NCBI RefSeq assembly: GCF_900177685.1
Contig: NZ_FXAY01000001.1
Span: 248,001 to 312,000 of the forward strand
Direction of reading: 5' to 3'
Length of the DNA: 64,000 bases
DNA from: Agreia pratensis
GTDB lineage: Bacteria > Actinomycetota > Actinomycetes > Actinomycetales > Microbacteriaceae
Positions 3,369 to 61,705 of this stretch are shown here, one piece after another; position 1 is the first letter of the stretch, and every line of letters starts with the position of its first letter. The notes under the pieces were generated by a model that was not told the DNA's origin, ran no database searches, and saw only the letters and a program-made list of their open reading frames with translations. The position numbers were made by a program, and so were the translations under genes.

Positions 3369-3371
3369 GTG

Positions 3372-9229: not shown

Positions 9230-9326
9230 TCGCACCCCCTCTCATTTATGGAGTGTCTCCGATCGAAGAGAAATCACGACGCGGCCGAATTATTTTTTCA
9301 GAATGTTGTTCCCGGGTACATAGACG

Positions 9327-9368
9327 CAAAAAAGCCCGGCACCCCTCGAAGAGAAGGGAAGCCGGGCT
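9327..9368 (-). terminator. Rho-independent terminator of tRNA-Glu
   Basis: AGCCCGGC (9333-9340) pairs with GCCGGGCT (9361-9368), and on the minus strand the hairpin is followed by six T residues. It lies directly behind tRNA-Glu. Confidence 0.9.
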
Positions 9369-9373
9369 ATCTG

Positions 9374-9446
9374 TGACCCCAACCGGATTCGAACCGGTGC
9401 TGCCGCCGTGAGAGGGCGGTGTCCTAGGCCGCTAAACGATGGGGCC
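9374..9446 (-). tRNA. tRNA-Glu (anticodon CUC)
   Basis: On the minus strand a 73-nt cloverleaf begins GGCCCCATCGTTTAGCGG. Acceptor stem GGCCCCA/TGGGGTC, anticodon loop CTCTCAC with anticodon CTC, and TpsiC arm CCGGTTCGAATCCGG are all present. CCA is not encoded. A canonical terminator follows. Confidence 0.96.
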
Positions 9447-9497
9447 GTCTGCAACTCAACGAGTATGCCATACGATCAGCCTTCAATGCCAATCGGC

Positions 9498-10412: not shown

Positions 10413-10479
10413 GATGTGTCGATTATGACCTACAGGCAATGCCCAAAGACGACGGCGCGATGCGTTCTACTCTGATGTC

Positions 10480-11118: not shown

Positions 11119-11142
11119 GAGACGCATGAGGGGTGGAGTCCT

Positions 11143-11466
11143 TCAGTCGAAGCGGGGCTTGCGCCGCTCGTCGTCTCCGAAGACCTCTTCGGCGATCAGT
11201 TCCGTGTTCACGAGCGGGCGGCGATCATCAGGAGATTGCCGACCGGGCTCCTCGTCTTCAGGCGTGGAGTCGACGTCGGGGTCGACATCTGGATCGGCGT
11301 CGAGCTGCTCGTCGTTGTGGTGCGTCTCGCCGTGACGGCGGTCGACGTCTTCGACGATGCCGTTGGTCTGATCGAAGGGATGCGCAACCTCATCGAGAGC
11401 GCTGAGGTTCGGCTCCTGGCGTGCGGCGTCGTTCGGCTTTCCTGTGGAGGGATCTGATGCATTCAT
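11143..11466 (-). CDS. Small acidic hypothetical protein
   Basis: 107-residue soluble, strongly acidic and probably disordered protein. The middle carries repeated Asp-Pro/Asp-Val pairs (LDADPDVDPDVDSTPEDEE) and a basic C-terminus (DDERRKPRFD). No domain is recognised. The start is ATG 11466; an upstream extension is Cys-rich and lacks coding character. It converges with the MBL gene and is divergent from the beta-helix protein. Confidence 0.6.
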   Translation of the reverse strand: MNASDPSTGKPNDAARQEPNLSALDEVAHPFDQTNGIVEDVDRRHGETHHNDEQLDADPDVDPDVDSTPEDEEPGRQSPDDRRPLVNTELIAEEVFGDDERRKPRFD

Positions 11467-11607
11467 GGCCGCGACGATACGCCCGCACGAAGCTGCCCGA
11501 CAGGGCTTGAAAAACACCCGCGCGCAGAGGTGCACAGTTGGGAATCCTCACGGGCCCTTGTGTGTTATCTCTAGCGAGTCGTGAGAACGGCTGTAGATGG
11601 AGGCACA

Positions 11608-12030
11608 GTGACCAGACCAATAGAAGAGATTGAAGACGAGACCGGCGTTGTCACGAAGTACCGTCGGCACCTCAACGGCCGCGGGCGCGTGGCCTCGAAA
11701 GCCAAAGTGCACCCGAGCGCATTCATCGAATCGTCGGCCTACGTCGAGTCGGATGCCCAGGTCGGCCAGAACACCTGGATCGGCGCGGGCAGCTGGGTGG
11801 ATCGCGGCGCGGTTCTGAGCGACGGCGTGTTCGTCGGGGCCAATGTGCACATCGGTCGCGGCGTATTCGTTGGCCGTGGAGCTCGGCTCGGCAGCAACTC
11901 CCGCATCGAGTCAGACGTTCGTATCGGCGACGAGACGCGGGTCGAGCGAGACACGCGCGTGGCCGAAGACCTCGGCTGGAGCGAGCGTCGTCGCACGTCG
12001 CCCGCAGACGGGTTCGCCAAGGCCGCCTGA
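11608..12030 (+). CDS. Small left-handed beta-helix (hexapeptide repeat) protein
   Basis: 140-residue protein whose centre (residues about 25-120) is a run of hexapeptide-type repeats (AKVHPSAFIESSAYVESDAQ, VGQNTWIGAGSWVDRGAVL, VFVGRGARLGSNSRIE), indicating a left-handed beta-helix. No catalytic His loop of acyltransferases is obvious. The start is GTG 11608, with GGAGG four bases upstream. It could be a minimal acyltransferase-like or carbonic-anhydrase-like scaffold; function unknown. Confidence 0.75.
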   Translation: MTRPIEEIEDETGVVTKYRRHLNGRGRVASKAKVHPSAFIESSAYVESDAQVGQNTWIGAGSWVDRGAVLSDGVFVGANVHIGRGVFVGRGARLGSNSRIESDVRIGDETRVERDTRVAEDLGWSERRRTSPADGFAKAA

Positions 12031-12057
12031 TCGGCTCCGATCTTCAGCCGGTCGCTC

Positions 12058-12201
12058 TCACCGCACGGTGGGGGCGGCCGGTTTCTTCATGTGCACACGG
12101 CGGTCGACCCGGCCGCTCTCAACGAGAGTAAGCCGCTCACCCTTCTGCAGCCACGGCGCGATTCGAGGCAAGCGCCACGCGTTCGCTAGACGCCAACCCA
12201 T
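12058..12201 (-). CDS. Possible small basic protein
   Basis: A 47-codon frame starting MGWRLANAWRLPRIAPWLQK, rich in Trp and Arg, lies 8 nt after the lipoprotein gene on the same strand. GC at third codon positions is lower than in neighbouring genes and the ribosome site (GAGAAG, 11 bases away) is weak. Reported because position and frame length would suit a small operon partner. Support is thin. Confidence 0.25.
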   Translation of the reverse strand: MGWRLANAWRLPRIAPWLQKGERLTLVESGRVDRRVHMKKPAAPTVR

Positions 12202-12209
12202 GAATGGGA

Positions 12210-12764
12210 TCACTTCTCGACGATTTCCTCGATATCGAGATCGTCGAAGCTTGCAAGCTTGTCGTCGAGAGGAAATGTGAGGTTCTCGACGAGCAGCTCG
12301 GGGCATGTGGCTTCGCTCGCTGTCAGCTTCCCGGGTCGAGACCGCTCGTAGGTGAAGCTCACACAGGTATAGCTGTGCACGCTCTCGTAGAACCACCCTC
12401 CTCCACCTTGACCTCTGCCCATCACGAACACGTTCGCCACCTGCTGGTTTGTCGTGGAGTCGATTGAGTACAACAGCAGGGAACGACTAGAGGTATTCAT
12501 CGCACGAAGTTCAGGGCCCGTCATAGACGTGACGTCGGTTTGAAAGACTGCTCTGATCTCCTCACTTGTCGGTAACGGATCAGATTTCGAAACAGTCGCC
12601 AAAGCCAAAAGGTTTTCCTGAGCAACGAGAGCCAACCTAGCGGCCTCGTCGGTGGCATAGTCCTGCGCGGTCGGTGTAGCGCAACCACTCAGCGACAGGA
12701 GACCGGCCGCGAGAACACTCACGGTAATGAGCCCGCGACGCGGGTACCTCGAGCGCGGGTGCAT
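12210..12764 (-). CDS. Putative lipoprotein
   Basis: 184 residues with a basic start, hydrophobic core and lipobox LSLSGC, predicting diacylglyceryl attachment and an extracytoplasmic location. The mature domain has two further Cys (SYTCVSFTYE and EATCPELL) and a Gly-rich GRGQGGGGWFYE segment. No known domain was recognised. The ATG at 12764 has the -10 element TAGGGT seven bases upstream, indicating a leaderless transcript. Confidence 0.8.
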   Translation of the reverse strand: MHPRSRYPRRGLITVSVLAAGLLSLSGCATPTAQDYATDEAARLALVAQENLLALATVSKSDPLPTSEEIRAVFQTDVTSMTGPELRAMNTSSRSLLLYSIDSTTNQQVANVFVMGRGQGGGGWFYESVHSYTCVSFTYERSRPGKLTASEATCPELLVENLTFPLDDKLASFDDLDIEEIVEK

Positions 12765-12971
12765 ACTCAGCACCCTAACTGCTGAATAGAACAATGTATT
12801 CAGACCCCGCGATCGTCATGATCACCTGATGCGCAGCCGATCACGCACGTCCTGCTCTAGCTTCTCCAGTTGGCGAGCGGGTATGCGCCGTGCCCTGCAA
12901 CGGTGAGCTTGCGGGCTCGTTTCTCATGCTGGTCTCCCTGGTCGACCCATCTCGCATCTAGGCTTGTTCTT

Positions 12972-13922
12972 GTGACCACTGCCACCGTCGGCACCATGCT
13001 GCCCCGCGACCTTCCCGCCCACCAGATCGTTCAGTTCGTGCAGAAGGCCGAGCAGCTCGGCTTCGACGAACTCTGGGTGGTCGAAGACTGTTTCTTTCGC
13101 GGCGGATTCGCCCAGGCCGCGGTCGCCCTGGCCTCGACCCAGCGAATCCGGGTGGGTATCGGCATCCTGCCTGCACCTGTGCGGAACGCGGCGTTCACCG
13201 CGCTCGAGGCCAACACTCTCGCGGAGCTCTACCCCGGCCGGCTGATCCTGGGTATCGGTCACGGTATGCCCGATTGGATGCGACAGGTCGGCGACAAGCC
13301 TGCGAGCATCCTGACCATGCTCGACGAGCAGCTCACGGCGCTCCGCACCCTTCTCGCCGGCGACAAGCTCGAGGTCGACGGCCGCTACGTGCAGATCCAC
13401 GGCGCACAGCTCGAGACTCCGGCCACGATCGCTCCCCCCGTGCTCGCCGGTGTTCGCGGGCCCAAGTCGCTCGCCCTCTCCGGCCGTTCCGCCGATGGCA
13501 CGATCCTCGCCGAACCGGTGACTCCCGAGTATCTGGTGGCCGCACTCGCGAACATAGATGCTGCCGGGCCGCACGAGATCGTGGCTTACAACGTGGCCGC
13601 CGTCGATGACGATGCCTCGGTCGCGAGGGATCGCGCGCGGCCGTCCCTCGAATGGATCGGCGAACCAGACTGGGCGCCGCACATCTCCCCGCTGCCGTTC
13701 GCCGATGAGTTCGCCGCGCTGAGGGCACGTTCGAGCACCAGCGCGGAGTTCACCGCCGCGCTTCCCGACGAATGGCTCGATGCTCTCGCACTCGTCGGAA
13801 CACCCGATCGGGTGCGCGCGCGCATCGCCGAACTTCATGCGAGCGGCGCGACCAGCGTCGTGTTGATGCCCGCCGGCGAAGACCCCCTGGCCCAGCTGGA
13901 CTCCCTCGCGCGCGCGCTGTGA
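12972..13922 (+). CDS. LLM class oxidoreductase (probably F420-dependent)
   Basis: 316-residue luciferase-like TIM-barrel oxidoreductase. Visible blocks are QKAEQLGFDELWVVEDCF, IRVGIGILPAPVRN, PGRLILGIGHGMPDWM and GPKSLALSGRSADGTI, resembling F420-dependent members such as Mer-like reductases. The substrate is unknown. The start is GTG 12972 because TAGGCT (12959-12964) is placed seven bases before it; earlier in-frame codons carry no family similarity. It precedes the folP2-like gene by 66 bases in the same direction. Confidence 0.86.
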   Translation: MTTATVGTMLPRDLPAHQIVQFVQKAEQLGFDELWVVEDCFFRGGFAQAAVALASTQRIRVGIGILPAPVRNAAFTALEANTLAELYPGRLILGIGHGMPDWMRQVGDKPASILTMLDEQLTALRTLLAGDKLEVDGRYVQIHGAQLETPATIAPPVLAGVRGPKSLALSGRSADGTILAEPVTPEYLVAALANIDAAGPHEIVAYNVAAVDDDASVARDRARPSLEWIGEPDWAPHISPLPFADEFAALRARSSTSAEFTAALPDEWLDALALVGTPDRVRARIAELHASGATSVVLMPAGEDPLAQLDSLARAL

Positions 13923-13988
13923 TCGCTCAGCGGGTTCTCTCGACGAGCTACGCAGTCTCTGCACCCCCGCGACAGGCATGATGGAGTC

Positions 13989-14912
13989 ATGACGACCCCC
14001 ACGGCGACCTCCGGGTTTCCGCTGCCCCCTCTCACGAGCCCCGTGCGCACGATCGGCGCACGCACCATCGACTTCTCTTCTCATATCGCTGTGATGGCGA
14101 TCGTCAACAGAACACCCGATAGCTTCTTCGATCGCGGCAAAACCTTCGCTCTCGACCGCGCCGTCGACGCTGCTCTCGCGGCGGCGTCTGCCGGCGCCGA
14201 CTGGGTCGACATCGGCGGGGTCAAATTCGCGCCCGGCCCGGAGGTCTCGGCGGCCGAAGAACTCGACCGGGTGCTTCCTGTCGTTCAGGCCGTCGCAGCG
14301 CAGTCAGACATCGTCATCTCGGTCGACACCTTCCGACTCGAGGTCGCCGAAGCGTGTATCGCCGCGGGCGCCTCGGTCGTGAACGACACCACCGGGTTGC
14401 AGAACCCGGCGCTGGCAGAGCTCGCGGCATCCACCGGCGCCACCCTCGTGATCACGCACAGTCTCGCTCAACCCCGCACTGCCTATGCGGCGCCGCGGTA
14501 CGACGACGTCGTGCTGGACGTCGTGGATTTTCTCCGCAAACGCGTGGAGCTGGCCATCGACCTAGGCCTCGACGAGACTCAGATCATCATCGACCCGGGG
14601 CACGATCTCAACAAGAACACCGTGCACTCGCTCGAGATCACGCGCCGCTTCGACGAGATCGCCCGCATCGGCCTTCCGGCTATCGCGGCCGTATCGAACA
14701 AGGACTTCGTCGGAGAATCGCTGGGCGCAGAACGAGACGACAGAGTCGACGGATCCCTGGCGGCGGCCACCGCCTGCGCCCTGCTCGGCGCCCGGATCGT
14801 GAGGATGCACGATGTCCGGCGATCGGTGCAGGCGATGCGCATGACCGAGACCATCCTCGGCCTGCGCGAACCGGAATACCTGCGTCACAACATGACCGAC
14901 GAGAACGAATGA
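13989..14912 (+). CDS. folP2: Dihydropteroate synthase-like protein, FolP2 type
   Basis: 307-residue TIM-barrel of the DHPS family. Loop 1 reads VMAIVNRTPDSFFDRG instead of the canonical NVTPDSFSDGG. Loop 2 reads DIGGVKFAPGP where true DHPS has DIGGESTRPG. The Ser-Thr-Arg of the pABA/sulfonamide pocket is therefore absent. This matches the mycobacterial FolP2 paralogue, reported to lack DHPS activity. The true reaction is unknown; a modified pterin or other condensation is possible. Its stop overlaps the next gene's ATG (ATGA), coupling it to a RibD-like reductase. Confidence 0.85.
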   Translation: MTTPTATSGFPLPPLTSPVRTIGARTIDFSSHIAVMAIVNRTPDSFFDRGKTFALDRAVDAALAAASAGADWVDIGGVKFAPGPEVSAAEELDRVLPVVQAVAAQSDIVISVDTFRLEVAEACIAAGASVVNDTTGLQNPALAELAASTGATLVITHSLAQPRTAYAAPRYDDVVLDVVDFLRKRVELAIDLGLDETQIIIDPGHDLNKNTVHSLEITRRFDEIARIGLPAIAAVSNKDFVGESLGAERDDRVDGSLAAATACALLGARIVRMHDVRRSVQAMRMTETILGLREPEYLRHNMTDENE

Positions 14913-33728: not shown

Positions 33729-34799
33729 TCAGCGGGCGAGCGACGCGGCCACGGCGTCTCTGATGGCGTCGCCCACGGCACTCGTCGTGCGCGGTCGGTC
33801 TGCCTGCCGGGTGGCGATGTCGGCCGTCACGGCGTCGCGAACCGTGCCCGCGGCATCCGGAACCCCGAGGTGATCGAGGAGGAGTGCCACCGACAGGATC
33901 GCGGCCGTGGGGTCGGCGATCTGCTTGCCTGCGATGTCGGGCGCGGATCCGTGGACCGGCTCGAACATGCTGGGGAAGGCTCCGTCGGGGTTGATGTTGC
34001 CCGAGGCCGCCAGGCCGATTCCGCCGCTGATTGCGCCGGCCAGATCGGTGAGGATATCGCCGAAGAGGTTGTCTGTGACGATGACGTCAAACCTAGCAGG
34101 GTCGGTGACCAGGAAGATCGTGGCGGCATCGACGTGCAGATAGTCGACCGCGACCTCGGGGTACTCGGCCCCGACGGTGTCGACGAGCCGGCGCCAGATG
34201 CCTCCGGCGAAGGTGAGCACGTTGGTCTTGTGCACCAGTGTCAGCTTCTTGGCCGGCCGTGACTGGGCAATTTCGAAGGCGAAGCGCACCACGCGCTCAA
34301 CCCCGTAGGCCGTGTTGATCGACACCTCGTTCGCGATCTCGTGCGGCGTGCCGACGCGGATGGCCCCGCCGTTCCCGACGTAGGGGCCCTCCGTTCCTTC
34401 GCGCACGACGACGAAGTCGACCTCGCCAGGGTTCGACAGCGGGCTGTCGACGCCGGGGTAGATCGTGGTGGGGCGCAGGTTCACGTAGTGGTCGAGGGTG
34501 AAGCGCAGCTTCAGCAGCAGGCCTCGCTCGATGTTGGCGTTCGCGAGGCGCGGGTCCCCCGGCACTCCCCCGACGGCGCCGAGCAGAATGGCGTCGTGCG
34601 ACGAGATGGACGCGAGATCGTCGTCGGTCAGCACGTCACCCGTGGAGAGAAAGCGTGTCGCACCGAGCGAGAACTGCGTCTTCTCGATGGTGAGGCCGGC
34701 CGACGGCGCCACCTCGTCGAGCACCTTCACTGCTTCGGCGACGACCTCCGGGCCGATACCGTCTCCGGGAATGACGGCCAGTCTGATGGTGCGCGACAT
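33729..34799 (-). CDS. leuB: 3-isopropylmalate dehydrogenase
   Basis: 356-residue NAD-dependent beta-decarboxylating dehydrogenase that oxidises 3-isopropylmalate to the precursor of 2-oxoisocaproate. Signatures: [37 protein letters not shown], and the metal loop [20 protein letters not shown]. The start is ATG 34799 with GGAG seven bases upstream; an extension to 34892 covers the promoter. A palindrome over the -35 region may be its operator. Confidence 0.96.
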
Positions 34800-34829
34800 A
34801 GTGCTCCTGCGTTGGATCGGTTCGAAAAC

Positions 34830-35190: not shown

Positions 35191-35217
35191 GTTTCAGTTG
35201 TGTAAATGGACTGTAAC
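35191..35217. promoter_or_regulatory. GlnR-like nitrogen box upstream of codB
   Basis: GTTTC-N6-GTAAA-N6-GTAAC repeats with an 11-bp period, close to the actinobacterial GlnR pattern GTNAC-N6-GNAAC. It ends 51 bases before the cytosine permease start. A similar GTAAA-N6-GTTAC lies before the glutamine-synthetase-like gene (61821-61836, minus strand). Nitrogen control is inferred from pattern and neighbours. Confidence 0.45.
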
Positions 35218-35268: not shown

Positions 35269-36711
35269 ATGACACTGACCGCCGCCCCAAAAACACAACT
35301 CGTCGAACCCGGCGGTATCGAGCCGATCCCGGCGGATAGACGCCACGGGTCGCCATGGCAGTTGTTCGCGACCTGGACCTCGCCTAACCTCGAATTCGCC
35401 ACGATCTTCGTGGGCGTCATCGCCGTTCTCTATTTCGGGCTGAGCTTCTGGCAGGCGGTGGCCGCCCTCCTCCTGGGCAACTTCCTCGGCAGCCTGAGCC
35501 AGGGCTTCCTCTCGACGTGGGGGCCGCGCGAGGGCCTCGCCCAGATGCTGCTCGGGCGCACGGCCTTCGGGTTCTGGGGCAACATCGTGCCCGCCGGCCT
35601 GAACACGGCGATGGCCGGACTCGGCTGGTTCGCCGTCAACTCCATCAGCGGAGCCTTCGCGCTGGCCACTCTGACCGGATGGAACCCGGTACTCACCCTC
35701 GCCATCGTCGTTGTCGTCGAGGTGACCGTGGCGTTCGTCGGCCATGACATCGTGCAGCTCTTCGAGCGGTACGCCATGTTCGTACTGGGCGCGATCTTCC
35801 TCATCGCCGGCATCTTCATCCTCTCCAACGCCGACACGGCGACCCCGGCGGCCGGCGACGGCTCCGGTGGCCTCGGTGGCTTCGCCGGCTTCATGCTCGC
35901 GGCCGGTGCCGCATTCGGCTACACCGCCGGGTGGAACCCCTATGCGGCTGACTACACCCGGTACCTGCGCGCCGATACGGACCGCCGAAAGATAGCCATC
36001 GCATCCGGCCTCGGCAATTTCGTCTCGACCAGCTTTCTCATGATCGTGGGTGCAGCATCCGCGACCATCGTGCACAGTGGTCTGGCCGACGACGCCAGCC
36101 CGACCGATTCTTTCACCGCGGGAATGCCGGGCTGGATCTCGTCGATCACGCTCCTCGCCATCGCCGTCGGTGCTGTTTCGGCGAACGCGCTGAACATCTA
36201 TTCGGGGTCGATGTCGTTCCTGGCGATCGGCATCAAGATTCCCTTCGAACGCCGTCGAGCGATTGTGGCTCTTGGCTTCGGCGTGCTGGGCTTCGTCATC
36301 GCCCTGCTCGCGATGTCGGACGCCGGCGCGAGCTACGAGAACTTCCTGCTCGTGATCTCCTACTGGATCGCGCCGTGGCTCGGCATCGTTCTCGCCGACC
36401 GGTGGTTGCGCCGCGGCACCGCCGTACTTGCGCTGGTCGTCGACGAGAAGAACAAATACCGCAACCCCGCCGGAATCATCGCTTTCGTCATAGCGGCCGT
36501 CGTATCGATCGGCCTCTTCTCCAACCAGGCCGTCTATGTAGGCCTGATCGTTCGGTCGACACCCGAGATCGGTGATCTCACGGCACTGGTCGGCTTCGCC
36601 CTGGCGGCGGTGCTCTACGTGGTGGTCTTCCGACTCGTGCGACCGGCGCTTGGCGCCCCTCTGTCGACCGACACGACCCTGCCGGCTGCGCGAGTGGAGG
36701 CTGACGCGTGA
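35269..36711 (+). CDS. codB: Purine-cytosine permease (NCS1 family)
   Basis: 480-residue membrane protein with about 12 helices of the nucleobase-cation-symport-1 family. Family features are SPNLEFATIFVGVIAVLYFG near the start, GWNPYAADYTRYLR in the middle and ISYWIAPWLGIVLADRWLRR late. It probably imports cytosine or a related nucleobase, since its stop overlaps the start of a cytosine deaminase (GTGA). It is leaderless: TAAACT (35257-35262) six bases before ATG. A GlnR-like box lies upstream. Confidence 0.9.
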   Translation: MTLTAAPKTQLVEPGGIEPIPADRRHGSPWQLFATWTSPNLEFATIFVGVIAVLYFGLSFWQAVAALLLGNFLGSLSQGFLSTWGPREGLAQMLLGRTAFGFWGNIVPAGLNTAMAGLGWFAVNSISGAFALATLTGWNPVLTLAIVVVVEVTVAFVGHDIVQLFERYAMFVLGAIFLIAGIFILSNADTATPAAGDGSGGLGGFAGFMLAAGAAFGYTAGWNPYAADYTRYLRADTDRRKIAIASGLGNFVSTSFLMIVGAASATIVHSGLADDASPTDSFTAGMPGWISSITLLAIAVGAVSANALNIYSGSMSFLAIGIKIPFERRRAIVALGFGVLGFVIALLAMSDAGASYENFLLVISYWIAPWLGIVLADRWLRRGTAVLALVVDEKNKYRNPAGIIAFVIAAVVSIGLFSNQAVYVGLIVRSTPEIGDLTALVGFALAAVLYVVVFRLVRPALGAPLSTDTTLPAARVEADA

Positions 36712-37160
36712 TCTACGAGACCGATGCTGAGAAGTTGGCCGTCGCCCGAGCCGAGGCCGAGAAGGGAGCCGCGGAAGGCGGCATCCCGATCGGCGCGGCA
36801 TTGTTCACGAGCGCTGGGGTTCTGCTCGGCAGCGGCCACAACCGCCGAGTGCAAGATGGTGACGCGGCAATGCATGCCGAGACCAACGCGTTTCACAACG
36901 CCGGGCGCCAGCGCAGCTACCGAGACACCGTGATGGTCACTACCCTCTCGCCGTGCTGGTACTGCTCGGGCCTCGTGCGCCAGTTCGGTATCGGCCGCGT
37001 CGTGGTCGGCGACGACCGGAATTTCCTGGGCGGGCAGGACTGGATCGCCGAACACGGTTGCGCGGTCACAGTGGTCAACGATCCCGGCCTGATCACGATG
37101 ATGGCGGCGTTCATCGAGGGCAACCCAGCGCTGTGGAACGAGGACATCGGCGAGGAGTAG
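36708..37160 (+). CDS. Cytosine deaminase, yeast FCY1-like
   Basis: 150-residue zinc-dependent deaminase of the cytidine-deaminase fold. Zinc ligands and the proton shuttle are H56-A-E58 and C83-x-x-C86 (SPCWYC). The order GGIPIGAALF, GSGHNRRVQDG and the C-terminal AFIEGNPALWNEDIGE resemble yeast Fcy1 rather than the unrelated amidohydrolase CodA or TadA. Coupling to the permease supports cytosine to uracil plus ammonia. GTG start overlaps the permease stop by four bases. Confidence 0.88.
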   Translation: MIYETDAEKLAVARAEAEKGAAEGGIPIGAALFTSAGVLLGSGHNRRVQDGDAAMHAETNAFHNAGRQRSYRDTVMVTTLSPCWYCSGLVRQFGIGRVVVGDDRNFLGGQDWIAEHGCAVTVVNDPGLITMMAAFIEGNPALWNEDIGEE

Positions 37161-37190
37161 CTCCGGCGCTCTGTCGGTAAGATCGCAACG

Positions 37191-37799
37191 GTGAGCGAAC
37201 GCCTTCCGGTCAACCCCGCGTCGACGGCGGAGAACCGCTCCTCTGTGGCTGAAGGCATCGGCTTAGAGGTTCGCGCCGCCAGAGTTCTGCTGGGCATCAG
37301 CATGCGTGAATTGGCCAAACGAATCGGCACCTCACAACCGTTCGTCTCGAACATCGAGAACGGTCGCATTTTTCCAAGTCTGCGCACCCTCGGTCTGCTC
37401 GCCACCGCGCTCGATGTGCCGGTCGGCAAACTCTTGCCGAGCACCAGCCGGGTCGAACGCATCACCGCATCGCAGATCGGGCGCGCTCGTGCACGCAGCG
37501 AAGGCCCGGTGCGGCCCCTGCTTACCGTCGGCGAGCTCCGCGCGGTGAGAATCGAGATCGCTCCCGGTGAGGTCGAGCGACGTCCGGTCATGCACGAAGG
37601 CGAAGAGTTCGTCATTCTGCTCGCGGGTGTTCTCATCCTTCTCCGTGAGGGGCTCCCCCCGCTGAGGATGGAGAGCGGCGACACTCTGTGGCTCGACGGC
37701 ACGGTGCCGCACCGCTTCGCCTGCCCCGACGAGTCACCCGTGCCGGGCTCGGCATTCATCGCCCTCGTCGGCCACGATGCTCTGGACTCACACTCGTGA
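37191..37799 (+). CDS. XRE-cupin transcriptional regulator 1
   Basis: 202 residues: helix-turn-helix at about 25-80 (RAARVLLGISMRELAKRIG, SQPFVSNIENGRIFPSL) and a C-terminal cupin (GEEFVILLAGVLILLREG; GDTLWLDGTVPHRFAC) that likely binds the effector. The GTG follows TAAGAT (37178-37183) by seven bases, so it has its own leaderless promoter despite being 30 bases from the deaminase gene. It overlaps regulator 2 by four bases. Likely controls this nucleobase cluster. Confidence 0.88.
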   Translation: MSERLPVNPASTAENRSSVAEGIGLEVRAARVLLGISMRELAKRIGTSQPFVSNIENGRIFPSLRTLGLLATALDVPVGKLLPSTSRVERITASQIGRARARSEGPVRPLLTVGELRAVRIEIAPGEVERRPVMHEGEEFVILLAGVLILLREGLPPLRMESGDTLWLDGTVPHRFACPDESPVPGSAFIALVGHDALDSHS

Positions 37800-38344
37800 T
37801 CACCGAAGGATGGGAGCTCGGAGTAGGCACTCGCGTGCGCGCTGCCCGCGAGGAGAGAGGGCTCACGACCCGGGCGCTTGCCAGTCTGGCCGGGCTGTCG
37901 CAATCTCTCCTCTCTGATGTCGAGAATGGCCGCACCCTTCCGAGTGTCTCCTCGCTCTACGCGATAGCGGAGGCGCTCGGAACAGGTCCCGCCGAACTGC
38001 TTCCGCAAGACGACGACAGCGCCCGGCTGACCCAGCATGGGGTACCACTACCGGCAGAAGGCCCAGGCGAGGCTGTGTCGACGCGCATGCTTTTCGGCGC
38101 ACCGGGGCGGCGCATCGAGGCCTATCTGTCCAGCTATCCGCAGGGGCAGACAGATCCCGTGCCCTTTCAGCACTCGGGCGAGGACATCATCGTCGTCGTC
38201 GAGGGGCGGATGACGCTGACCGTCGGCGACCGTGCGCAGGAGCTGCGTGCGGGCGATGCCGCGTGGCTCGACGCTTCGGCCCCGCATTCCATCGAACCTC
38301 TTGGGCCCGACGGCGTGCGCACGATCGTGATCTCCGCGCGCTGA
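37796..38344 (+). CDS. XRE-cupin transcriptional regulator 2
   Basis: 182 residues with the same design as its neighbour: helix-turn-helix 10-65 (RVRAAREERGLTTRALASLA, SQSLLSDVENGRTLPS) and cupin (SGEDIIVVVEGRMTLTVGD; AAWLDASAPHSIEPLG). The two differ greatly in sequence, so they are unlikely to be a recent duplication. GTG start overlaps regulator 1's stop (GTGA). Two coupled paralogues could form a heteromer or sense two ligands. Confidence 0.88.
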   Translation: MITEGWELGVGTRVRAAREERGLTTRALASLAGLSQSLLSDVENGRTLPSVSSLYAIAEALGTGPAELLPQDDDSARLTQHGVPLPAEGPGEAVSTRMLFGAPGRRIEAYLSSYPQGQTDPVPFQHSGEDIIVVVEGRMTLTVGDRAQELRAGDAAWLDASAPHSIEPLGPDGVRTIVISAR

Positions 38345-38369
38345 GCAGCGCGCGACAGCCGAACGCGGT

Positions 38370-38927
38370 TCAGGCTGACGAGGGCAGGGATACAGTCGAG
38401 CCCGTGTGATAGATGAGCGGCCGAGCCGTCTTGTGCGCGCTCGCGCCTGTCACCTCCAACACGACGACGAAATGATCGCCGGTGGGCATGGCGCTCAGAA
38501 TGCGGCATTCGAGCCAGAGGCGCGCGCCAGAGATGAAGACCGCGCCATCGACCGTGCGTCCGAGCACCGATCTGTCGAAGCGGTCTCCCGTACGCGAGGC
38601 AAGTCGACGAACCTCCTCGGCGTTGTTCTCCGACAGAACAGAGACACCGATGCGTGGCGCGGTCGACAGCGACGCCCACGTTTTCGAGTCGCGTTGTATC
38701 GACACGAGCACACACGGAGGGTCGAACGAAGCACCGACGGTCAACGAGGTCACGACCATGCCTACCGCGCTCTGGTCGATGTCTGCGCAGATCGCCGCGA
38801 CGCCAGCCGGATACTCGGCGAACATCTGCCTCACGGCCGCGGGGTCGGATGGAACGGGAGGCATCTCCACACGTCCGGAATCGTCGTCGGGCACCTCGAA
38901 CTCGGCCCACGGCTGCGTCCACTCCAT
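38370..38927 (-). CDS. Flavin reductase family protein
   Basis: 185-residue FMN-binding split-barrel protein (flavin reductase-like). Signatures: RQMFAEYPAGVAAICADID, GMVVTSLTVGASFDPPCVLV and SVLSENNAEEVRRLAS. Such proteins supply reduced flavin to two-component monooxygenases; the NtaA-like monooxygenase divergent to it is the obvious partner. ATG 38927 is preceded by GGAG. They share a 232-bp intergenic region holding a 13-bp palindrome. Confidence 0.9.
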   Translation of the reverse strand: MEWTQPWAEFEVPDDDSGRVEMPPVPSDPAAVRQMFAEYPAGVAAICADIDQSAVGMVVTSLTVGASFDPPCVLVSIQRDSKTWASLSTAPRIGVSVLSENNAEEVRRLASRTGDRFDRSVLGRTVDGAVFISGARLWLECRILSAMPTGDHFVVVLEVTGASAHKTARPLIYHTGSTVSLPSSA

Positions 38928-39040
38928 CGTTCTCCACTCCGCATGGGCGCATCGGAGCCCACGTCTAGTCCAGAGCCTCTCCCTGCCACATTTCCGACGC
39001 ATTACGAAGCGGAGAACGATTTGTAACAGTTATCGCTTCA

Positions 39041-39053
39041 TAGTCAGTGACTA
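39041..39053. promoter_or_regulatory. Palindrome between flavin reductase and monooxygenase genes
   Basis: TAGTCA-G-TGACTA is a perfect 13-bp palindrome in the divergent intergenic region, 106 bases before the monooxygenase start. Upstream, GATTTGTAACAGTTATCG is a looser inverted repeat (39018-39035). It could be an operator for one of the XRE-cupin regulators. Confidence 0.4.
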
Positions 39054-39159
39054 CAGGGAAGGGCCTCTTCTGCGTCTTGTCCGTCATTGCAGCCCCATGC
39101 GATGATCGGTAGGAGATATCACCCAGATCGGGTGGCACCGTATTCTGCAGGGAGATCTC

Positions 39160-40536
39160 ATGGTCAAGCAGCTCATCCTCGGGGCATTCGAGGAGTTCAC
39201 TCCGAACTTCATCGCCAACGCTTGGCATCACGAACGAGGCGACACCAGCGCGTTCGCGACACTGGGATTCTGGCAGGACCTGGCGGCTCGTATGGACGCG
39301 GCCGGATTCGACTTCTTCTTTCTGGCGGAAGCCATCGGCTACCCGATGAATGATTCCGGGCAGGTGCCCGAAGCCGTCATCCGGGATGCCGTGCAATTCC
39401 CTGTGCACGACCCGCTCGCGCTGATCTCCGGACTCGCTGCGGCCGCCCCGCGTATCGGCTTCGTCGCAACGGCGTCGACGACCGCGCAGCATCCGCTGCT
39501 CAACGCCCGCACCTTCACCACCCTCGATCACCTCACCGATGGGCGCATGGGCTGGAACATCGTCACGAGCGACAACCAGCAGGCCCTCGTGCGCCTGCTC
39601 GGCCAGACGGATGTGACGCCGCACGACGAGCGCTACGCCCGCGCGACCGAGTTCGTCGACCTCTCCCTGCGACTCTGGGAGGAGGCGTGGGACGACGGGG
39701 CGGTCCTCGCCGACAAGGCGACCCGCACGTTCTCCGATCCGGCGAAGGTGCATCGCATAGAGCACGACGGAAAGTACTTCCGGTTCGACGGATACTTCCC
39801 CGCGACACCCTCCCCGCAACGCACCCCTACCCTCTTTCAAGCGGGCACCTCGGCCGCCGGCACAGCATTCGCCGCACGCTACGCCGAATGCGTGTTCACT
39901 CAGGATCGAGAACCCGCGCGCCTCGCAGCAACCGTCGCCCGCCTGCGCGCCCAGGCCGTCGCGGCGGGCCGACCGGCAGACTCCATCAAGATCATCAACG
40001 GAGCGAGCTTCGTGATCGCCGACACGGTGGACGAGGCGCAGCGCCTGCGGGCGGAGCTCAACGCGACCCCCACCAGAGAGGCGACCGCTGCCCTATTCCT
40101 GGGCTGGTCAGGGGTGGACCTCGGCGCCCTCGATCCCCACGCCACACTCGATTCCGTCTCGACCGAGGTGGGCCACACGATGATCGACATGTGGCGGAAT
40201 CCGGACGGTACGAGCCCAACCGTCGGCGAGATCCTCGACTCGCTAGCCTCGACCTTCGGCGGGATTCGTTTCACTGGAACCGTCGAATCCATCGCTGCAG
40301 AGATCGAGGCACTGGTCGAGCAGACCGACATCGACGGGTTCCTCGTCGAGAACTGGTACGGCGGCTACGAGGGCTATCGCGACTTCGTCGAGATGCTGAT
40401 GCCTGTTCTGCGAGAGCGTGGACTGCTGCCCGACGTCGCCCGCTCGGGCACCCTTCGCAGCATGCTGACCGGAGAGCCCGACGTGCCCGAGTGGCACCCG
40501 GCTCGCACTGTCCGCGGCGCCCAGAGCGGTGCGTGA
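39160..40536 (+). CDS. NtaA/SnaA/DszA family FMN-dependent monooxygenase
   Basis: 458-residue luciferase-like monooxygenase of the reduced-flavin-using (two-component) type. Blocks: GFDFFFLAEAIGYPM, TLDHLTDGRMGWNIVTSDN, RYARATEFVDLSLRLWEEAW, TLFQAGTSAAGTAFAARYAE and DGFLVENWYGG. Relatives cleave C-N or C-S bonds (nitrilotriacetate, dibenzothiophene sulfone). Nucleobase genes next to it suggest an N-heterocycle substrate, reminiscent in logic of RutA. ATG has GGGAG upstream and its 3' end overlaps the deaminase-like gene by eight bases. Confidence 0.9.
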   Translation: MVKQLILGAFEEFTPNFIANAWHHERGDTSAFATLGFWQDLAARMDAAGFDFFFLAEAIGYPMNDSGQVPEAVIRDAVQFPVHDPLALISGLAAAAPRIGFVATASTTAQHPLLNARTFTTLDHLTDGRMGWNIVTSDNQQALVRLLGQTDVTPHDERYARATEFVDLSLRLWEEAWDDGAVLADKATRTFSDPAKVHRIEHDGKYFRFDGYFPATPSPQRTPTLFQAGTSAAGTAFAARYAECVFTQDREPARLAATVARLRAQAVAAGRPADSIKIINGASFVIADTVDEAQRLRAELNATPTREATAALFLGWSGVDLGALDPHATLDSVSTEVGHTMIDMWRNPDGTSPTVGEILDSLASTFGGIRFTGTVESIAAEIEALVEQTDIDGFLVENWYGGYEGYRDFVEMLMPVLRERGLLPDVARSGTLRSMLTGEPDVPEWHPARTVRGAQSGA

Positions 40537-41584
40537 GGCGATGGACGATCCCCTCGACAGCGCCACGGAGGCACTCCTCCTCGCACTGCCCAAGGTCTCT
40601 CTGCACAACCACCTCATCGGTGCCGTGTCGGCCCAGACCGTGCTCGATCTCGCTCGCAAGCATGGCATCGTCATCGATGGGGGTCGCGATGCCGAGACGC
40701 TGTACGACCACGACTCCTACGAGGATCTCAACGAGTTCCTGCGCGTATTGGATGTCGCCGGCTCCGTCATGCGCGACGCCGACGACTTCCGCCGAGTCGC
40801 CTTCGAGACCCTGACCGACGGCGGTGCCGCGCTCGGCGTCGTGCATCGCGAGATCTTCCTGAGCCCGCCGGGGCATCCGGGCGTGCCGTATCGCACGATC
40901 ATCGACGGGGTGCTGGCGGGTATGCGCGATGCCGAAACCGAGACGGGCATCACGAGCCGCATGGTGATCGGCCTCAACCGCAATGATTCCGCCTCTGCTG
41001 CCGTCGAACTGGTGGAACAGGTGATCGAGCATCGCATCGACGAGGTCGTTGGCATCGGACTCGACTATTCGGAGCTGATCGGCCCTCCGGCGCGCTTCGT
41101 CGAGGCGTTCCAGCTCGCCGGCCGGTCGGGACTTCACCGCACGGCGCACTCCGAGAACGGCCCGCCCGCCAACATCGAGGTCATCCTCGACGAACTCGGC
41201 GGCGAGCGGATCGACCACGGTTACCACGTCGTCGACGACGCCAGAATCACGGCGCGATGCGTCGAAGAGAACATCGCCTTCACCTGCACCCCGGTGAGCT
41301 CGGACATCGGCCGTTACTCCGGAAGCGGCGACGGCTCACACCTGCGGATCGCGCAGATGGTCGACGCAGGACTCTCCATCACCATCGACTCCGACGATCC
41401 ACCGATGTTCGGCACCGACGCCGTCAACGACTTCCGCGCGCTGGCCCGCGCTCTCGGCTACGGCCTGCCCGAGTTCGCGCGGTTCACTCGGAACGCGGTG
41501 AGGGCCGCGTGGCTCGACGACAGCGACCGCGCAACCCTCTCGCACACGGTCGAAGCACGTCTGTCAGCCCTGAAGCGCAGCTAA
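40529..41584 (+). CDS. Adenosine/adenine deaminase family amidohydrolase (divergent)
   Basis: 351-residue TIM-barrel metal hydrolase. Metal ligands fit the ADA family: H26-N-H28 (VSLHNHLIGA), H207 and D289-D290 (DSDDPPMFGT), plus RIDHGYHV. Departures: HNHLIGA for HxHLxGA, and AHSENGPP where ADA has HAGEVGPP, losing one residue beside the catalytic Glu. The substrate is therefore probably not plain adenosine. It overlaps the monooxygenase gene, implying it processes a product or precursor of that enzyme. Start GTG 40529; ATG 40541 is possible. Confidence 0.85.
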   Translation: MREAMDDPLDSATEALLLALPKVSLHNHLIGAVSAQTVLDLARKHGIVIDGGRDAETLYDHDSYEDLNEFLRVLDVAGSVMRDADDFRRVAFETLTDGGAALGVVHREIFLSPPGHPGVPYRTIIDGVLAGMRDAETETGITSRMVIGLNRNDSASAAVELVEQVIEHRIDEVVGIGLDYSELIGPPARFVEAFQLAGRSGLHRTAHSENGPPANIEVILDELGGERIDHGYHVVDDARITARCVEENIAFTCTPVSSDIGRYSGSGDGSHLRIAQMVDAGLSITIDSDDPPMFGTDAVNDFRALARALGYGLPEFARFTRNAVRAAWLDDSDRATLSHTVEARLSALKRS

Positions 41585-41612: not shown

Positions 41613-43157
41613 CTAGGAACGTGTGTTTCGCAGCGAGAACAGGGCCAACACGATCGCCAAGACCATCAGGCCGACACCGATCCCCGATGTCAGAACCACG
41701 CCGCTGTCGAACGACGCCCGGGCCGACTCGAGCAAGATCCTGCCCGCCGGACCACCGACAGAGCCTGCTACCGAGACGGCACCACCGAGAGTCTCGCGCG
41801 CGGTCTCGGCGTCCTGTGGGCTGAGCCCGGCCGGCAGGCTGACCCCGCTCCGATATGCCGCCGTCAGAATACTTCCGAGCACGGCCGTGCCGAGCACTGC
41901 ACCGAGTTCGTACGACGTCTCAGACACTCCAGATGCCGCGCCCGCCTTGTCTGCCGGCACCGACGAGATGATCAAGTCGTTCGAGATGGTCTCTGCTGCT
42001 CCGATTCCGAGGCCCAGCACCGCGAACGCGATCGCCAGAGTCGTCTCGCTCGCGTGCTGGCCCGTGACCATGATGATGGCGTAGGCCGTGCCTGCTAGCG
42101 CGAGACCCGTGGCGACAACAAAGCTCGGCCTGATGACGCGCACGATCGGAACCACGACCAGTCCGGAGATGACCATCACGATCAGGCCCGGAACCAGCGC
42201 CAGAGCCGCGTCGAGGGGGCGCATTCCCAACACGAGCTGAAGGTGTTGCGACACGAAGAAGAGAAACCCGACGAGCGAGAAGACACTCACCAGGTTGATG
42301 AGCACGGCACCAGTGAACGCTCCGCGACGAAACAGCCTCATGTCGAGCATGGGGTTCTCTCTGGCGAGCTGACGACGCACAAAGAGTGTGCCCGCCGCCG
42401 CGCCGATCAGTACAAGAAGCACCTGCTGCCATTCGAAACCGTGCGTCGCGAACTCTTTGATCGCGAACACGAACGGCACAAGCGTGATCATCGTGAGGCC
42501 GATGCTGACCATGTCGATGCGCCCCGGGTTCGGGTCGCGCGATTCAGGCACGAGCAGCGGCGCGAACACGAGAAGCGGGATCAGGACCGGCACTGCGATG
42601 AGGAAGACGGAACCCCACCAGAAGTGCTCGAGGAGGATTCCGCCGACGATCGGGCCGAGGGCCGACCCTGCGGCGAATCCGGCTGCCCAGATCGCGATCG
42701 CGAGTCGTCGCTGCTCGCGATCGAGGAAGATGCTGCGTAGCAGCGACAGCGTCGATGGCATGAGCATCGCGCCGAAGAAGCCGAGGCCCGCGCGGGCGAG
42801 AATCAGCAGCTCGGCCGTGGGCGCGAACGCCGCCACGATCGACACGAGAGCAAAACCCGTGGCGCCGATCAGCAGCAGGCGCCGACGGCCCCATCGGTCG
42901 CCGAGGTTGCCCATGGCGACGAGAAGTCCCGCGAGCACCAGCGGATACGCATCGATGATCCAGAGCTGTGCGGCGGCAGACGGGCGTAGCGATTCAGAAA
43001 TAACCGGCAGGGCGAAGCTCAGCACCGTGTTGTCGACGCTCGAGATGAGCACCGGCAGCATAAGGACGGCCAACGCAAGCCAATGCCGAACGGATGCGCG
43101 AGGCGCCCGCGCGTCGTCGGCGCGCTGAGCGGGCGTAGGTGTGGTGAGCAGAGCCAT
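41613..43157 (-). CDS. MFS multidrug transporter (DHA2/EmrB-QacA type)
   Basis: 514 residues with 14 predicted membrane helices, the drug:H+ antiporter-2 layout. Motif A is GNLGDRWGRRRLLLIG; the antiporter motif C region is AIWAAGFAAGSALGPIVGG. It starts ATG 43157; an extension through the operator was rejected. A TetR gene is divergent, and a 24-bp palindrome overlaps the TATAGT -10 element of this gene, so TetR repression relieved by a toxic ligand is likely. Confidence 0.92.
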   Translation of the reverse strand: MALLTTPTPAQRADDARAPRASVRHWLALAVLMLPVLISSVDNTVLSFALPVISESLRPSAAAQLWIIDAYPLVLAGLLVAMGNLGDRWGRRRLLLIGATGFALVSIVAAFAPTAELLILARAGLGFFGAMLMPSTLSLLRSIFLDREQRRLAIAIWAAGFAAGSALGPIVGGILLEHFWWGSVFLIAVPVLIPLLVFAPLLVPESRDPNPGRIDMVSIGLTMITLVPFVFAIKEFATHGFEWQQVLLVLIGAAAGTLFVRRQLARENPMLDMRLFRRGAFTGAVLINLVSVFSLVGFLFFVSQHLQLVLGMRPLDAALALVPGLIVMVISGLVVVPIVRVIRPSFVVATGLALAGTAYAIIMVTGQHASETTLAIAFAVLGLGIGAAETISNDLIISSVPADKAGAASGVSETSYELGAVLGTAVLGSILTAAYRSGVSLPAGLSPQDAETARETLGGAVSVAGSVGGPAGRILLESARASFDSGVVLTSGIGVGLMVLAIVLALFSLRNTRS

Positions 43158-43203
43158 GATCGGAGTTCTTCGTTTCTTTTGTTTCGTCTGTTGCGCGACC
43201 TTC

Positions 43204-43330: not shown

Positions 43331-43930
43331 ATGCCAGACACCTCAGAGAAACCGCCGATCGACTCCGTCACGCCCCCTTTATCGACGCGCGACCGAATCA
43401 TCGATGCCTTCGCCGAACTGCTCGGCGAGAACGGCGAACGCGCCGCGACGCTCGACGCAGTCGCCGCCGCCGCGGGCGTCTCCAAGGGTGGACTGCTCTA
43501 CCACTTCGGCTCGAAAGAAGCCCTGATCGAGGGTGTGCTCGAGCGACTGGCGACGTTGGTCGAGCGCGACGTCGCGGCCATCCGGTCGTCACCATCGGGG
43601 CCGGTCGCACACCTGATCCGCACATCCATGGCGACGGGCAGCGCGCTCGACAAGGCGCTGGTCGCGACCTCGCGCCTGGCCCAGGCCTCGAACTCCACGG
43701 CGCGGGATGCGCTGCGCGCCGCCAACGACGCCTGGTACGGGATCGTGCTCGAGAGCACGGGCGACCCGGTTCTCTCACGGGCGATCATGCTGATCAGCGA
43801 TGGGCTCGCCTACGGGTCGGCGTTTCTTCCCGAATCGATGACTCCCGACACGGCCGAACTGACGAGATCAGACATCGACGACCTCGTCGATCTGATCACC
43901 GAGGTCACGGCCCAGCGCGCGGGCCACTGA
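43331..43930 (+). CDS. TetR family transcriptional regulator
   Basis: 199 residues. Helix-turn-helix at about 20-65: TRDRIIDAFAELLGENGERA and VAAAAGVSKGGLLYHFGSKE. The C-terminal all-helical ligand domain is variable, as usual. Leaderless: TAGCAT (43318-43323) is seven bases before ATG. Probably represses the divergent MFS exporter through the palindrome between them. It converges with serA, eight bases between stops. Confidence 0.92.
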   Translation: MPDTSEKPPIDSVTPPLSTRDRIIDAFAELLGENGERAATLDAVAAAAGVSKGGLLYHFGSKEALIEGVLERLATLVERDVAAIRSSPSGPVAHLIRTSMATGSALDKALVATSRLAQASNSTARDALRAANDAWYGIVLESTGDPVLSRAIMLISDGLAYGSAFLPESMTPDTAELTRSDIDDLVDLITEVTAQRAGH

Positions 43931-60351: not shown

Positions 60352-61705
60352 AGCCGCGGATCCTCTCCCAGTCGGTGACGGCCGAGTCGAAGGCTTTGAG
60401 CTCGATGCGGGCGTTGTTGACGTAGTGATCGACGACCTCGTCGCCGAATGCCGCTCGCGCGATCTCGCTCGATCCGAAGAGCTCCGCCGCGTCACGCAGA
60501 TTCGTGGGCACCCGCGGCGCACCGGAAGTGTAGGCGTTGCCCACCGTGGCATCCTCGAGCTCGAGTTCGTTCTCGATGCCGTAGAGGCCGCCGGCGATCA
60601 GCGCCGCCGTGGCGAGGTACTGGTTCACGTCACCGCCCGGAACCCGGTTCTCGACGCGCATTCCGAGCCCCTTGCCCACCACGCGCAGGGCGCAGGTGCG
60701 GTTGTCGAGGCCCCATGCAACGGCCGTCGGTGCAAACGATCCGTCGACGTAGCGCTTGTAGGAGTTGATGTTGGGCGCGAAGAACAGCGTCAGCTCGCGC
60801 AGGGTCTTGAGCTGGCCGGCCATGAAGTGACGGAACATCGTCGACATGCCGTTCTCGGCATCCGGATCGCTGAAGACGGCCGTGCCGTCGGTGCCCCTGA
60901 GGCTGATGTGCACGTGGCACGAGTTGCCCTCGCGCTCGTTGAATTTGGCCATGAACGTGAGCGACTTGCCGTGCCTGTCGGCGATCTCTTTCGCACCGTT
61001 CTTGTAGATCGAGTGGTTGTCGCAGGTGACCATCGCGTCGTCGTAGCGAAAGCCGATCTCCTGCTGGCCCAGGTTGCACTCGCCCTTGACGCCCTCGCAG
61101 TACATGCCCGCGCCATCCATCGACACGCGAATGTCGCGGAGCAGCGGCTCCATGCGGGTGGAGGCCAGAAGTGCGTAGTCGATGTTGTAGTCACTGGCAG
61201 GGGTGAGATCGCGGTACCCCTTCGACCAGGCCGAGCGATAGCTGTCGTCGAAGACGATGAACTCGAGTTCGGTGGCGACGAAGGCCTCGAGTTCGCGGTC
61301 TTTCAGGCGCTTCATCTGGGCGGCCAGAATCTGTCGCGGAGACGGCTCGACGGGTGTCTCATCCAGCCAATGCAGGTCGGCGGTGACCATCGCGGTACCG
61401 GGAAGCCATGGGACCGTGCGCAGCGTCGACATGTCGGGCATCATCGCCATGTCGCCGTAGCCGTGCTCCCAACTCGACATGTCGTAGCCGTCGACGGTGT
61501 TCATCTCGACGTCGACGGCGAGCAGATAGTTGCAGCACTCGGCTCCGTGCGACGCAGCGTCTTCGACGAAGAGCCGCGCCGAGAGTCGTTTGCCGACGAG
61601 TCGACCCTGCATGTCGGTGAAGGCGACGATCACGGTGTCGATCTCGCCGGCCGAGACCTGAGCGGTCAGCGCGTCGAGCGTGAGATTTCCTGCAGTGGAT
61701 GCCAC
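60338..61705 (-). CDS. Glutamine synthetase-like gamma-glutamyl-amine ligase
   Basis: 455-residue GS-fold enzyme. ATP/metal motifs: TELEFIVFDDSY, EGNSCHVHISLRG and RVENRVPGGDVNQYLATAAL. The adenylylation-site region of GlnA is lacking. Close to PuuA and Streptomyces GlnA3/GlnA4-type ligases that link glutamate to polyamines or ethanolamine. GTG 61705 start has AAGGAG six bases upstream. First gene of a five-gene overlapping operon. Confidence 0.9.
   Translation of the reverse strand: MASTAGNLTLDALTAQVSAGEIDTVIVAFTDMQGRLVGKRLSARLFVEDAASHGAECCNYLLAVDVEMNTVDGYDMSSWEHGYGDMAMMPDMSTLRTVPWLPGTAMVTADLHWLDETPVEPSPRQILAAQMKRLKDRELEAFVATELEFIVFDDSYRSAWSKGYRDLTPASDYNIDYALLASTRMEPLLRDIRVSMDGAGMYCEGVKGECNLGQQEIGFRYDDAMVTCDNHSIYKNGAKEIADRHGKSLTFMAKFNEREGNSCHVHISLRGTDGTAVFSDPDAENGMSTMFRHFMAGQLKTLRELTLFFAPNINSYKRYVDGSFAPTAVAWGLDNRTCALRVVGKGLGMRVENRVPGGDVNQYLATAALIAGGLYGIENELELEDATVGNAYTSGAPRVPTNLRDAAELFGSSEIARAAFGDEVVDHYVNNARIELKAFDSAVTDWERIRGFERL

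Follow-up and report, generated by a model that had tools for sequence, protein, structure and literature searches.

A seven-gene cluster of Agreia pratensis (Microbacteriaceae), lying within the 64,000-nucleotide stretch of DNA analysed here (the window: contig NZ_FXAY01000001.1, positions 248,001 to 312,000, of a 3.58-Mb genome; positions below follow window numbering), is likely best read as a system for scavenging nitrogen from aminated nucleobases. The cluster has two layers: an ordinary pair formed by a permease and a cytosine deaminase, and a rarer module formed by a flavin mononucleotide (FMN)-dependent monooxygenase and an ADA-like zinc hydrolase, accompanied by XRE-cupin regulators and a flavin reductase. 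All of the families are known, and what is new is their combination, which is not described in the open-licence literature searched (weak evidence of absence). The reading is carried by the gene families, the retention of catalytic residues, recurrent association of the genes, candidate GlnR boxes shared within Agreia, and purine catabolic genes elsewhere in the genome; from these we infer the individual substrates, the dealkylation step, and the action of GlnR and the XRE-cupin proteins.

Under nitrogen limitation, GlnR is predicted to activate transcription of both the permease-deaminase and the monooxygenase-ADA genes, with the XRE-cupin proteins probably sensing the substrate. The permease would bring the base in, and the FCY1-type enzyme would remove the amino group of cytosine. 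A substituted base would be oxidized by the monooxygenase, supplied by the neighbouring flavin reductase, most likely through cleavage of the substituent from the ring or exocyclic nitrogen (an oxidative dealkylation, like that of the riboflavin lyase RcaE), after which the ADA-like enzyme would deaminate the freed adenine-type base. The ammonia would be assimilated, and the purine product may pass through the xanthine dehydrogenase, urate oxidase and allantoinase of the genome. We consider this scheme of import, oxidation and deamination, with aminated nucleobase-like heterocycles as the nitrogen source, to stand at an even chance of being correct.

Gene content and organization

35269..36711, plus strand: NCS1-family permease, purine-cytosine type (PF02133, 131.1 bits; cut-off 23.5)
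36708..37160, plus strand: FCY1-type cytosine deaminase, a small zinc deaminase (phmmer matches to solved yeast-type cytosine deaminases)
37191..37799, plus strand: XRE-cupin regulator 1 (HTH_3 and Cupin_2)
37823..38344 (start approximate), plus strand: XRE-cupin regulator 2 (HTH_31/HTH_3 and Cupin_2)
38370..38927 (start approximate; longest frame from 39002), minus strand: flavin reductase (PF01613, 99.9 bits)
39160..40536, plus strand: NtaA/DmoA-family FMN-dependent monooxygenase (TIGR03860, 417 bits; cut-off 279.7)
40541..41584 (alternative GTG start 40529), plus strand: ADA-like zinc hydrolase of the HSE[S/N/T] subfamily (TIGR01430, 236.2 bits)
35191..35217, minus strand: predicted GlnR-type box of the permease promoter, GTTAC-n6-TTTAC-n6-GAAAC, 11/12 consensus positions
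39001..39027, plus strand: predicted GlnR-type box of the monooxygenase promoter, ATTAC-n6-GAGAA-n6-GTAAC, 10/12 positions

All seven genes have open frames at these coordinates, and their scores in profile searches agree with the families under which a preliminary description had grouped them. Of the stop-start overlaps also reported there, the 4-nucleotide (nt) overlap between permease and deaminase is real; that between monooxygenase and hydrolase hinges on the GTG start at 40529 and is probably not, because it is the ATG at 40541, 4 nt past the monooxygenase stop, and not the GTG that has a counterpart in all five Agreia relatives examined (loci L067-L070 and L074). The hydrolase gene is co-directional with the monooxygenase gene, and the opposite-facing gene is the flavin reductase. 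Two Agreia loci (L070 and L074) carry the order permease-deaminase-monooxygenase-ADA without regulators or reductase; here the stop codon of the deaminase overlaps the start codon of the monooxygenase in an ATGA junction, and all four genes are closely packed as a single predicted operon. Open reading frame calls at the fetched loci show shifted starts and an occasional antisense frame, so that gene lengths there are estimates; tblastn served to re-read the key genes.

The cluster is flanked by leuB (33729-34802, minus) and an LfrA-like MFS efflux gene (41616-43163, minus). The latter, together with a TetR-type regulator gene (43334-43930, plus), adjoins the cluster in the five Agreia loci named above and in a further Agreia genome, G006.

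The permease and cytosine deaminase

The permease, which we take to be FCY2-like, scores 137 bits on TIGR00800 (cut-off 353.1) and is not CodB by model (PRK11017, 50.5 bits; cut-off 326). The best solved relatives of the deaminase are yeast-type cytosine deaminases (1uaq and others), matched by phmmer at E of about 5e-30 over residues 6-149 of 150. Together the two genes resemble the FCY2/FCY1-type pair for cytosine uptake and deamination (yeast names), from which the Agreia cluster differs in being extended by the monooxygenase-ADA module. Of 398 Microbacteriaceae genomes, 79 have a deaminase of this kind (E <= 1e-30), and the permease adjoins it in all 17 further loci fetched, which were drawn from the 73 deaminase genomes other than monooxygenase-bearing Agreia (the L197 permease is matched in two segments). 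The pair is thus common and ordinary in Microbacteriaceae, a point missing from the earlier description, and therefore novelty lies in the module of monooxygenase and ADA-like hydrolase.

The monooxygenase and flavin reductase

The monooxygenase (model pLDDT 88.5) has the riboflavin lyase RcaE as its nearest solved structure (37% identity, TM 0.92), followed by LadA, DmoA and HcbA1. NtaA, which lends its name to the family, catalyzes an oxidative dealkylation. RcaE of Microbacterium maritypicum G10 (PDB 5w48/5w4y/5w4z) is described as an FMN enzyme that oxidatively takes the ribityl chain off isoalloxazine (PMC12746152), a removal that would fit the dealkylation proposed here. Riboflavin catabolism, considered on account of this likeness, was rejected: the cluster holds other partners and no riboflavin genes, and 37% identity is too low for a substrate to be transferred. 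The neighbouring flavin reductase falls under the cut-offs of all eight NCBIfam reductase models matched, that of RutF among them, and is probably the FMNH2 supplier of the monooxygenase.

The same genome encodes two more NtaA-type paralogues at 33-34% identity (G000:C5:44286-45470 and G000:C10:598952-600265) and two weaker ones (C10:595218 and C10:597693).

The ADA-like hydrolase

The hydrolase exceeds the TIGR01430 cut-off (236.2 vs 216.55 bits) and lies under those of all PRK09358 subfamily models matched. The zinc-binding and catalytic set of the ADA family consists of HxH, His, Glu, His and Asp-Asp; in alignments of 35 and of 30 sequences, H26, H207, H230, D289 and D290 are invariant, and H28 and E209 are found in at least 90%. 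The predicted model (pLDDT 91.8) is best matched by 4gxw, 3ou8 and 3rys. Of these structures, 3rys is titled adenine deaminase of Arthrobacter aurescens and 3ou8 adenosine deaminase of P. aeruginosa, the latter presumably active on adenine as well; the title of 4gxw assigns no activity. Fold and zinc/catalytic residues are those of ADA-family adenine deaminases (3rys, 3ou8; about 30% identity), but the motif around the catalytic Glu differs: HAGE in the ADA family, present in all three structures, is replaced by HSE[N/S/T] in the hydrolase. HSE[S/N/T] is common to the six Agreia copies, to L090, L093 and L200, and to the motif-bearing piece of L205.

The 46 ADA-family proteins encoded close to a monooxygenase or cytosine deaminase fall by motif into at least four subfamilies (HSE[S/N/T]; H[VA]GET; HAGEE; PHAGEL), all of them companions of the monooxygenase family.

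Distribution and genomic association

Across the 398 Microbacteriaceae genomes, the monooxygenase (E <= 1e-120) is present in 31 and a relative of the ADA-like hydrolase (E <= 1e-60) in seven, six of which are Agreia; phylum-wide, such a relative is found in 3 of 386 genomes, the source genome included, and one of them (G766) is 43% identical and lacks HSE[S/N/T]. Both genes are present in six of the eight Agreia genomes. G006 (locus L187) has permease and deaminase only, at the same chromosomal site, and G007 has neither a close monooxygenase or ADA gene nor such a cytosine deaminase. The bare G006 site and the compact L070/L074 order are compatible with either gain or loss of the module within Agreia. 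As for the regulators and reductase, their loss in L070 and L074 is favoured because both nest among regulator-bearing genomes, although the forks are not firm (80/33; 98/88 with L069).

Outside Agreia, all four enzyme and transport genes lie together in Quadrisphaera granulorum (L090; identities of 70% for ADA, 59% for the monooxygenase, 67% for the cytosine deaminase and 52% for the permease). In an uncultured Nesterenkonia (L093), one locus holds the ADA (67%), monooxygenase (57%) and reductase (43%) genes, preceded by XdhC, an NMT1-type ABC transporter and an amidohydrolase that resembles 8-oxoguanine deaminase (529 bits; cut-off 532). Permease and monooxygenase are associated in L083 and L084, and monooxygenase and cytosine deaminase in L057. 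The co-occurrence that the preliminary description had proposed looking for is thus found and leaves its cluster reading standing; this recurrence, with the GlnR-type boxes in Agreia, supports its view of the genes as a cluster for acquiring nitrogen from N-heterocycles (nucleobases).

Of the 32 close monooxygenase loci (at least 55% identity; five are Agreia), eight have an ADA-family gene within 6 kb, eight the permease, six the cytosine deaminase, six the reductase and 19 an XRE-cupin gene; in one of the eight with an ADA-family gene (L086, 37%), that gene is of a different ADA subfamily. Among 48 more distant monooxygenase relatives, 27 have an ADA-family gene within 9 kb, a count that has no background control. 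At the genome level, the cytosine deaminase is found in 24 of the 31 Microbacteriaceae genomes with the monooxygenase vs 55 of the 367 others (p 5e-13), and by genus in 9/10 with it vs 21/75 without (p 2.6e-4), both statistics ignoring kinship. The seven genomes that have the monooxygenase without the cytosine deaminase comprise six of one genus (g46) and one of another (g5).

In a 41-row monooxygenase tree, the Quadrisphaera and Nesterenkonia rows group together (98/93) apart from the six Agreia rows (100/100). Adjacency to an ADA gene of this subfamily, a label left off Galbitalea, whose ADA relative is distant from its monooxygenase, needs at least two gains or losses on supported branches (shuffled mean 7.5). 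The monooxygenase of L076, on a contig labelled as a metagenome-assembled genome of Bifidobacterium breve, sits on a long branch beside two sequences from Microbacterium, and the contig is probably mis-binned.

Purine genes and related catabolic loci

A purine catabolic island lies on the same contig (C10) as the cluster, at about 138-163 kb, some 120-145 kb from the cluster (283-290 kb). Xanthine dehydrogenase and an XdhC relative are encoded there, as are urate oxidase (350 bits; cut-off 168) and allantoinase (550 bits; cut-off 358). The island further holds an enzyme resembling guanine deaminase (349.7 bits vs 351 and 308.5 vs 375.4), together with a nucleoside hydrolase and an amidohydrolase of CodA type (under cut-off); no ADA-like gene occurs in the 40 kb fetched around it.

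Elsewhere, members of the ADA subfamily lie near purine-base genes in two non-Agreia loci, L093 and L205. In the latter (genome G459), the ADA relative (63-69%) is divided between two frames. Its locus also holds xanthine dehydrogenase, a guanine deaminase (closest to 1wkq), an NMT1-type ABC transporter and a 2-oxoglutarate-Fe(II) oxygenase. The oxygenase and ADA frames overlap by 4 nt, and the best solved match of the oxygenase is an ethylene/succinate-forming enzyme, followed by thymine dioxygenase. That a non-homologous oxygenase occupies this position beside the ADA gene fits an oxidative trimming step. The subfamily is beside some oxygenase in Agreia, Quadrisphaera, Nesterenkonia and G459, and alone in Galbitalea. 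The split gene of L205 (9726-11023) lies in a genome rated 100% complete and is either a decaying gene or a sequencing error.

Several loci of more distant relatives carry other catabolic gene sets. L106 and L118 (Nesterenkonia sandarakina NZ_PVTY01000010) show a large cluster resembling heterocycle catabolism, with xanthine dehydrogenase, XdhC, amidohydrolases, an ABC transporter, an ADA-like gene, an aldehyde dehydrogenase, two monooxygenases, a two-subunit thiamine pyrophosphate (TPP) enzyme, a GMC oxidoreductase and a flavin reductase. Much of the aldehyde dehydrogenase-monooxygenase-TPP-GMC set recurs in other distant loci (e.g. L114, L122, L132, L133). The TPP pair recalls LumK/LumL of PMC12746152, where the lumichrome (riboflavin) catabolic cluster of Nocardioides simplex directs hydrolases, a xanthine-oxidase-type enzyme and a TPP heterocycle decarboxylase at an N-heterocycle; a similar gene mix is seen at some distant monooxygenase loci, whereas the gene content of the Agreia cluster differs. 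In L116 (Subtercola lobariae, 65-14643), a nucleoside hydrolase, a uridine-phosphorylase-like gene, two ADA-family genes, an amidohydrolase, an NMT1-type ABC transporter and a distant monooxygenase form one cluster, probably for nucleoside or nucleobase catabolism.

Predicted nitrogen control

GlnR boxes are given as gTnAc-n6-GaAAc for Streptomyces coelicolor and GTnAC-n6-GTnAC for S. venezuelae in two papers (PMC3662644, PMC3087709), the first of which also places two NCS1-type permease genes of Mycobacterium smegmatis, MSMEG1177 and MSMEG6660, at GlnR-bound sites. Reference boxes of the Agreia genome read GTAAC-n6-GAAAC-n6-GTCAC-n6-GTAAC at glnA and GTTAC-n6-GAAAC at amtB. In all seven Agreia loci tested, the permease promoter has three half-sites spaced by 11 bp, at 78 nt upstream of the gene start; the half-sites are constant and the spacers differ. 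The monooxygenase promoter carries [G/A]TTAC-n6-GAGAA-n6-GTAAC, 159 nt before the start, in all four Agreia loci tested that have this promoter; it scores 10, 11, 10 and 11 of 12, and the window copy is weaker than the permease box. Both boxes, like those at glnA and amtB, agree with the published GlnR patterns. GlnR-type boxes are thus kept across Agreia, and nitrogen control is therefore predicted: the cluster is probably switched on by nitrogen shortage, through GlnR acting at these candidate boxes. The boxes were also considered as a family-wide feature, which was rejected since they are not general in 19 permease and 27 monooxygenase/ADA promoters outside Agreia.

A third glutamine-synthetase-like gene lies in the window at 60356-61645 (minus); it matches PF00120 and reaches 215.9 bits on TIGR00653, under the cut-off of 429, and is perhaps a gamma-glutamyl ligase.

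Weighing the proposed function

Several observations weigh against nitrogen scavenging through the scheme above. An ADA-family gene is absent within 6 kb in 24 of the 32 close monooxygenase loci, and the monooxygenase must therefore be useful without it. In Galbitalea, the ADA relative has housekeeping genes as neighbours and lies 73 kb away from the monooxygenase, and G459, whose ADA relative is the split one, has no monooxygenase at E <= 1e-60. The genome-wide ADA listing covers matches at E <= 1e-60, and an ordinary adenine or adenosine deaminase may still exist elsewhere in the genome. All substrates are putative, and the dealkylation step is proposed by analogy. The window boxes are moderate by score, being reached in 8/500 shuffles (permease) and 29/500 (monooxygenase); the amtB box is likewise moderate (34/500), and only glnA stands at 0/500. 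Of the 19 non-Agreia permease promoters, scanned with approximate gene starts, one has a clear box (L204, 0/200 shuffles) and one a marginal box (L090, 5/200), and none of the 27 non-Agreia monooxygenase/ADA promoters, scanned likewise, stands out (lowest 6/150 shuffles).

One alternative holds that the cluster comprises two separate neighbours: the permease and deaminase would salvage cytosine, and the monooxygenase-ADA module, having come to lie beside them by chance, would act on an unrelated compound. The pair does occur without the module in all 17 other fetched loci, the same site in Agreia G006 included, and 24 of the 32 close monooxygenase loci lack a permease, and 26 a cytosine deaminase, within 6 kb. 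Against chance stand the tight packing in L070/L074, the union of all four genes in Quadrisphaera, the partial associations in L083, L084 and L057, and the genome-level co-occurrence of monooxygenase and cytosine deaminase, and we regard this alternative as unlikely.

Another alternative is a Rut-like route with replaced enzymes, in which cytosine is converted to uracil, the monooxygenase opens the ring via a flavin N5 adduct in the manner of RutA, and the ADA-like hydrolase stands in for RutB. The Rut pathway of E. coli (RutA-RutG) likewise combines a two-component flavin monooxygenase and reductase with a nucleobase permease, RutG, a pyrimidine symporter, which belongs to a transporter family other than that of the cluster permease. 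The permease and cytosine deaminase could supply uracil, and the monooxygenase shares its overall fold with RutA (6sgl, TM 0.63/0.83). RutA, DszA and HcbA1 are classed together as flavin-N5-oxide enzymes (PMC7662398), and Thr105 and Asn134 are said to line the RutA O2 pocket (PMC10005588). These two residues are kept as T104/N133 in nine of nine aligned sequences, RutA included, but they are invariant in 35 aligned monooxygenase-family sequences and hence not specific, and the si-side residues W139 and E292 of RutA are D and G in the monooxygenase. On the RutA model (TIGR03612) the monooxygenase scores 68.1 bits against a cut-off of 498.3, and on the RutF model (TIGR03615) the reductase scores 40.4 against 254.75. 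The best RutB match genome-wide (TIGR03614) is 28.5 bits against 377.95, and profile searches find no RutB-E in the cluster, in agreement with the preliminary description (RutC-E were not searched genome-wide). The Agreia cluster has deaminases instead; moreover, the ADA-like enzyme keeps an aminohydrolase zinc site, and L093 and L205 have relatives of it beside purine genes. The NCBIfam models, the E. coli RutA sequence and the RutB genome search led to the rejection of a strict Rut parallel. The RutF/RutA parallel drawn earlier is not supported by these scores, and the route with replaced enzymes appears improbable.

Least probable, and very doubtful, is that the monooxygenase is a riboflavin lyase-like or a sulfur- or carbon-scavenging enzyme with no nucleobase link: RcaE (37%), LadA, DmoA and HcbA1 are its closest solved structures, but such identity does not carry a substrate, the cluster has no riboflavin kinase, phosphatase or sulfur gene, and a nucleobase permease is near in 8/32 and a cytosine deaminase in 6/32 close loci.

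If aminated nucleobases are indeed scavenged for nitrogen, our preferred guess for the oxygenase step is, by analogy, that it dealkylates a substituted base, with ring opening as the main rival. More tentatively still, the monooxygenase and the HSE[S/N/T] deaminase may constitute an undescribed two-step route, oxidative trimming followed by deamination of modified aminated nucleobases (e.g. N-alkylated adenines such as cytokinins, or methylated bases), that supplies nitrogen under GlnR, and related clusters with other ADA subfamilies may handle other N-heterocycles; we hold this extension to be possible, though rather unlikely in full.

Implications

If correct, nitrogen scavenging of this kind would add an oxygen-dependent branch to nucleobase catabolism and would provide a functional setting for a set of NtaA/DmoA-type monooxygenases. 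Should modified adenines such as cytokinins prove to be the substrate, the module would also bear on the bacterial turnover of plant hormones.

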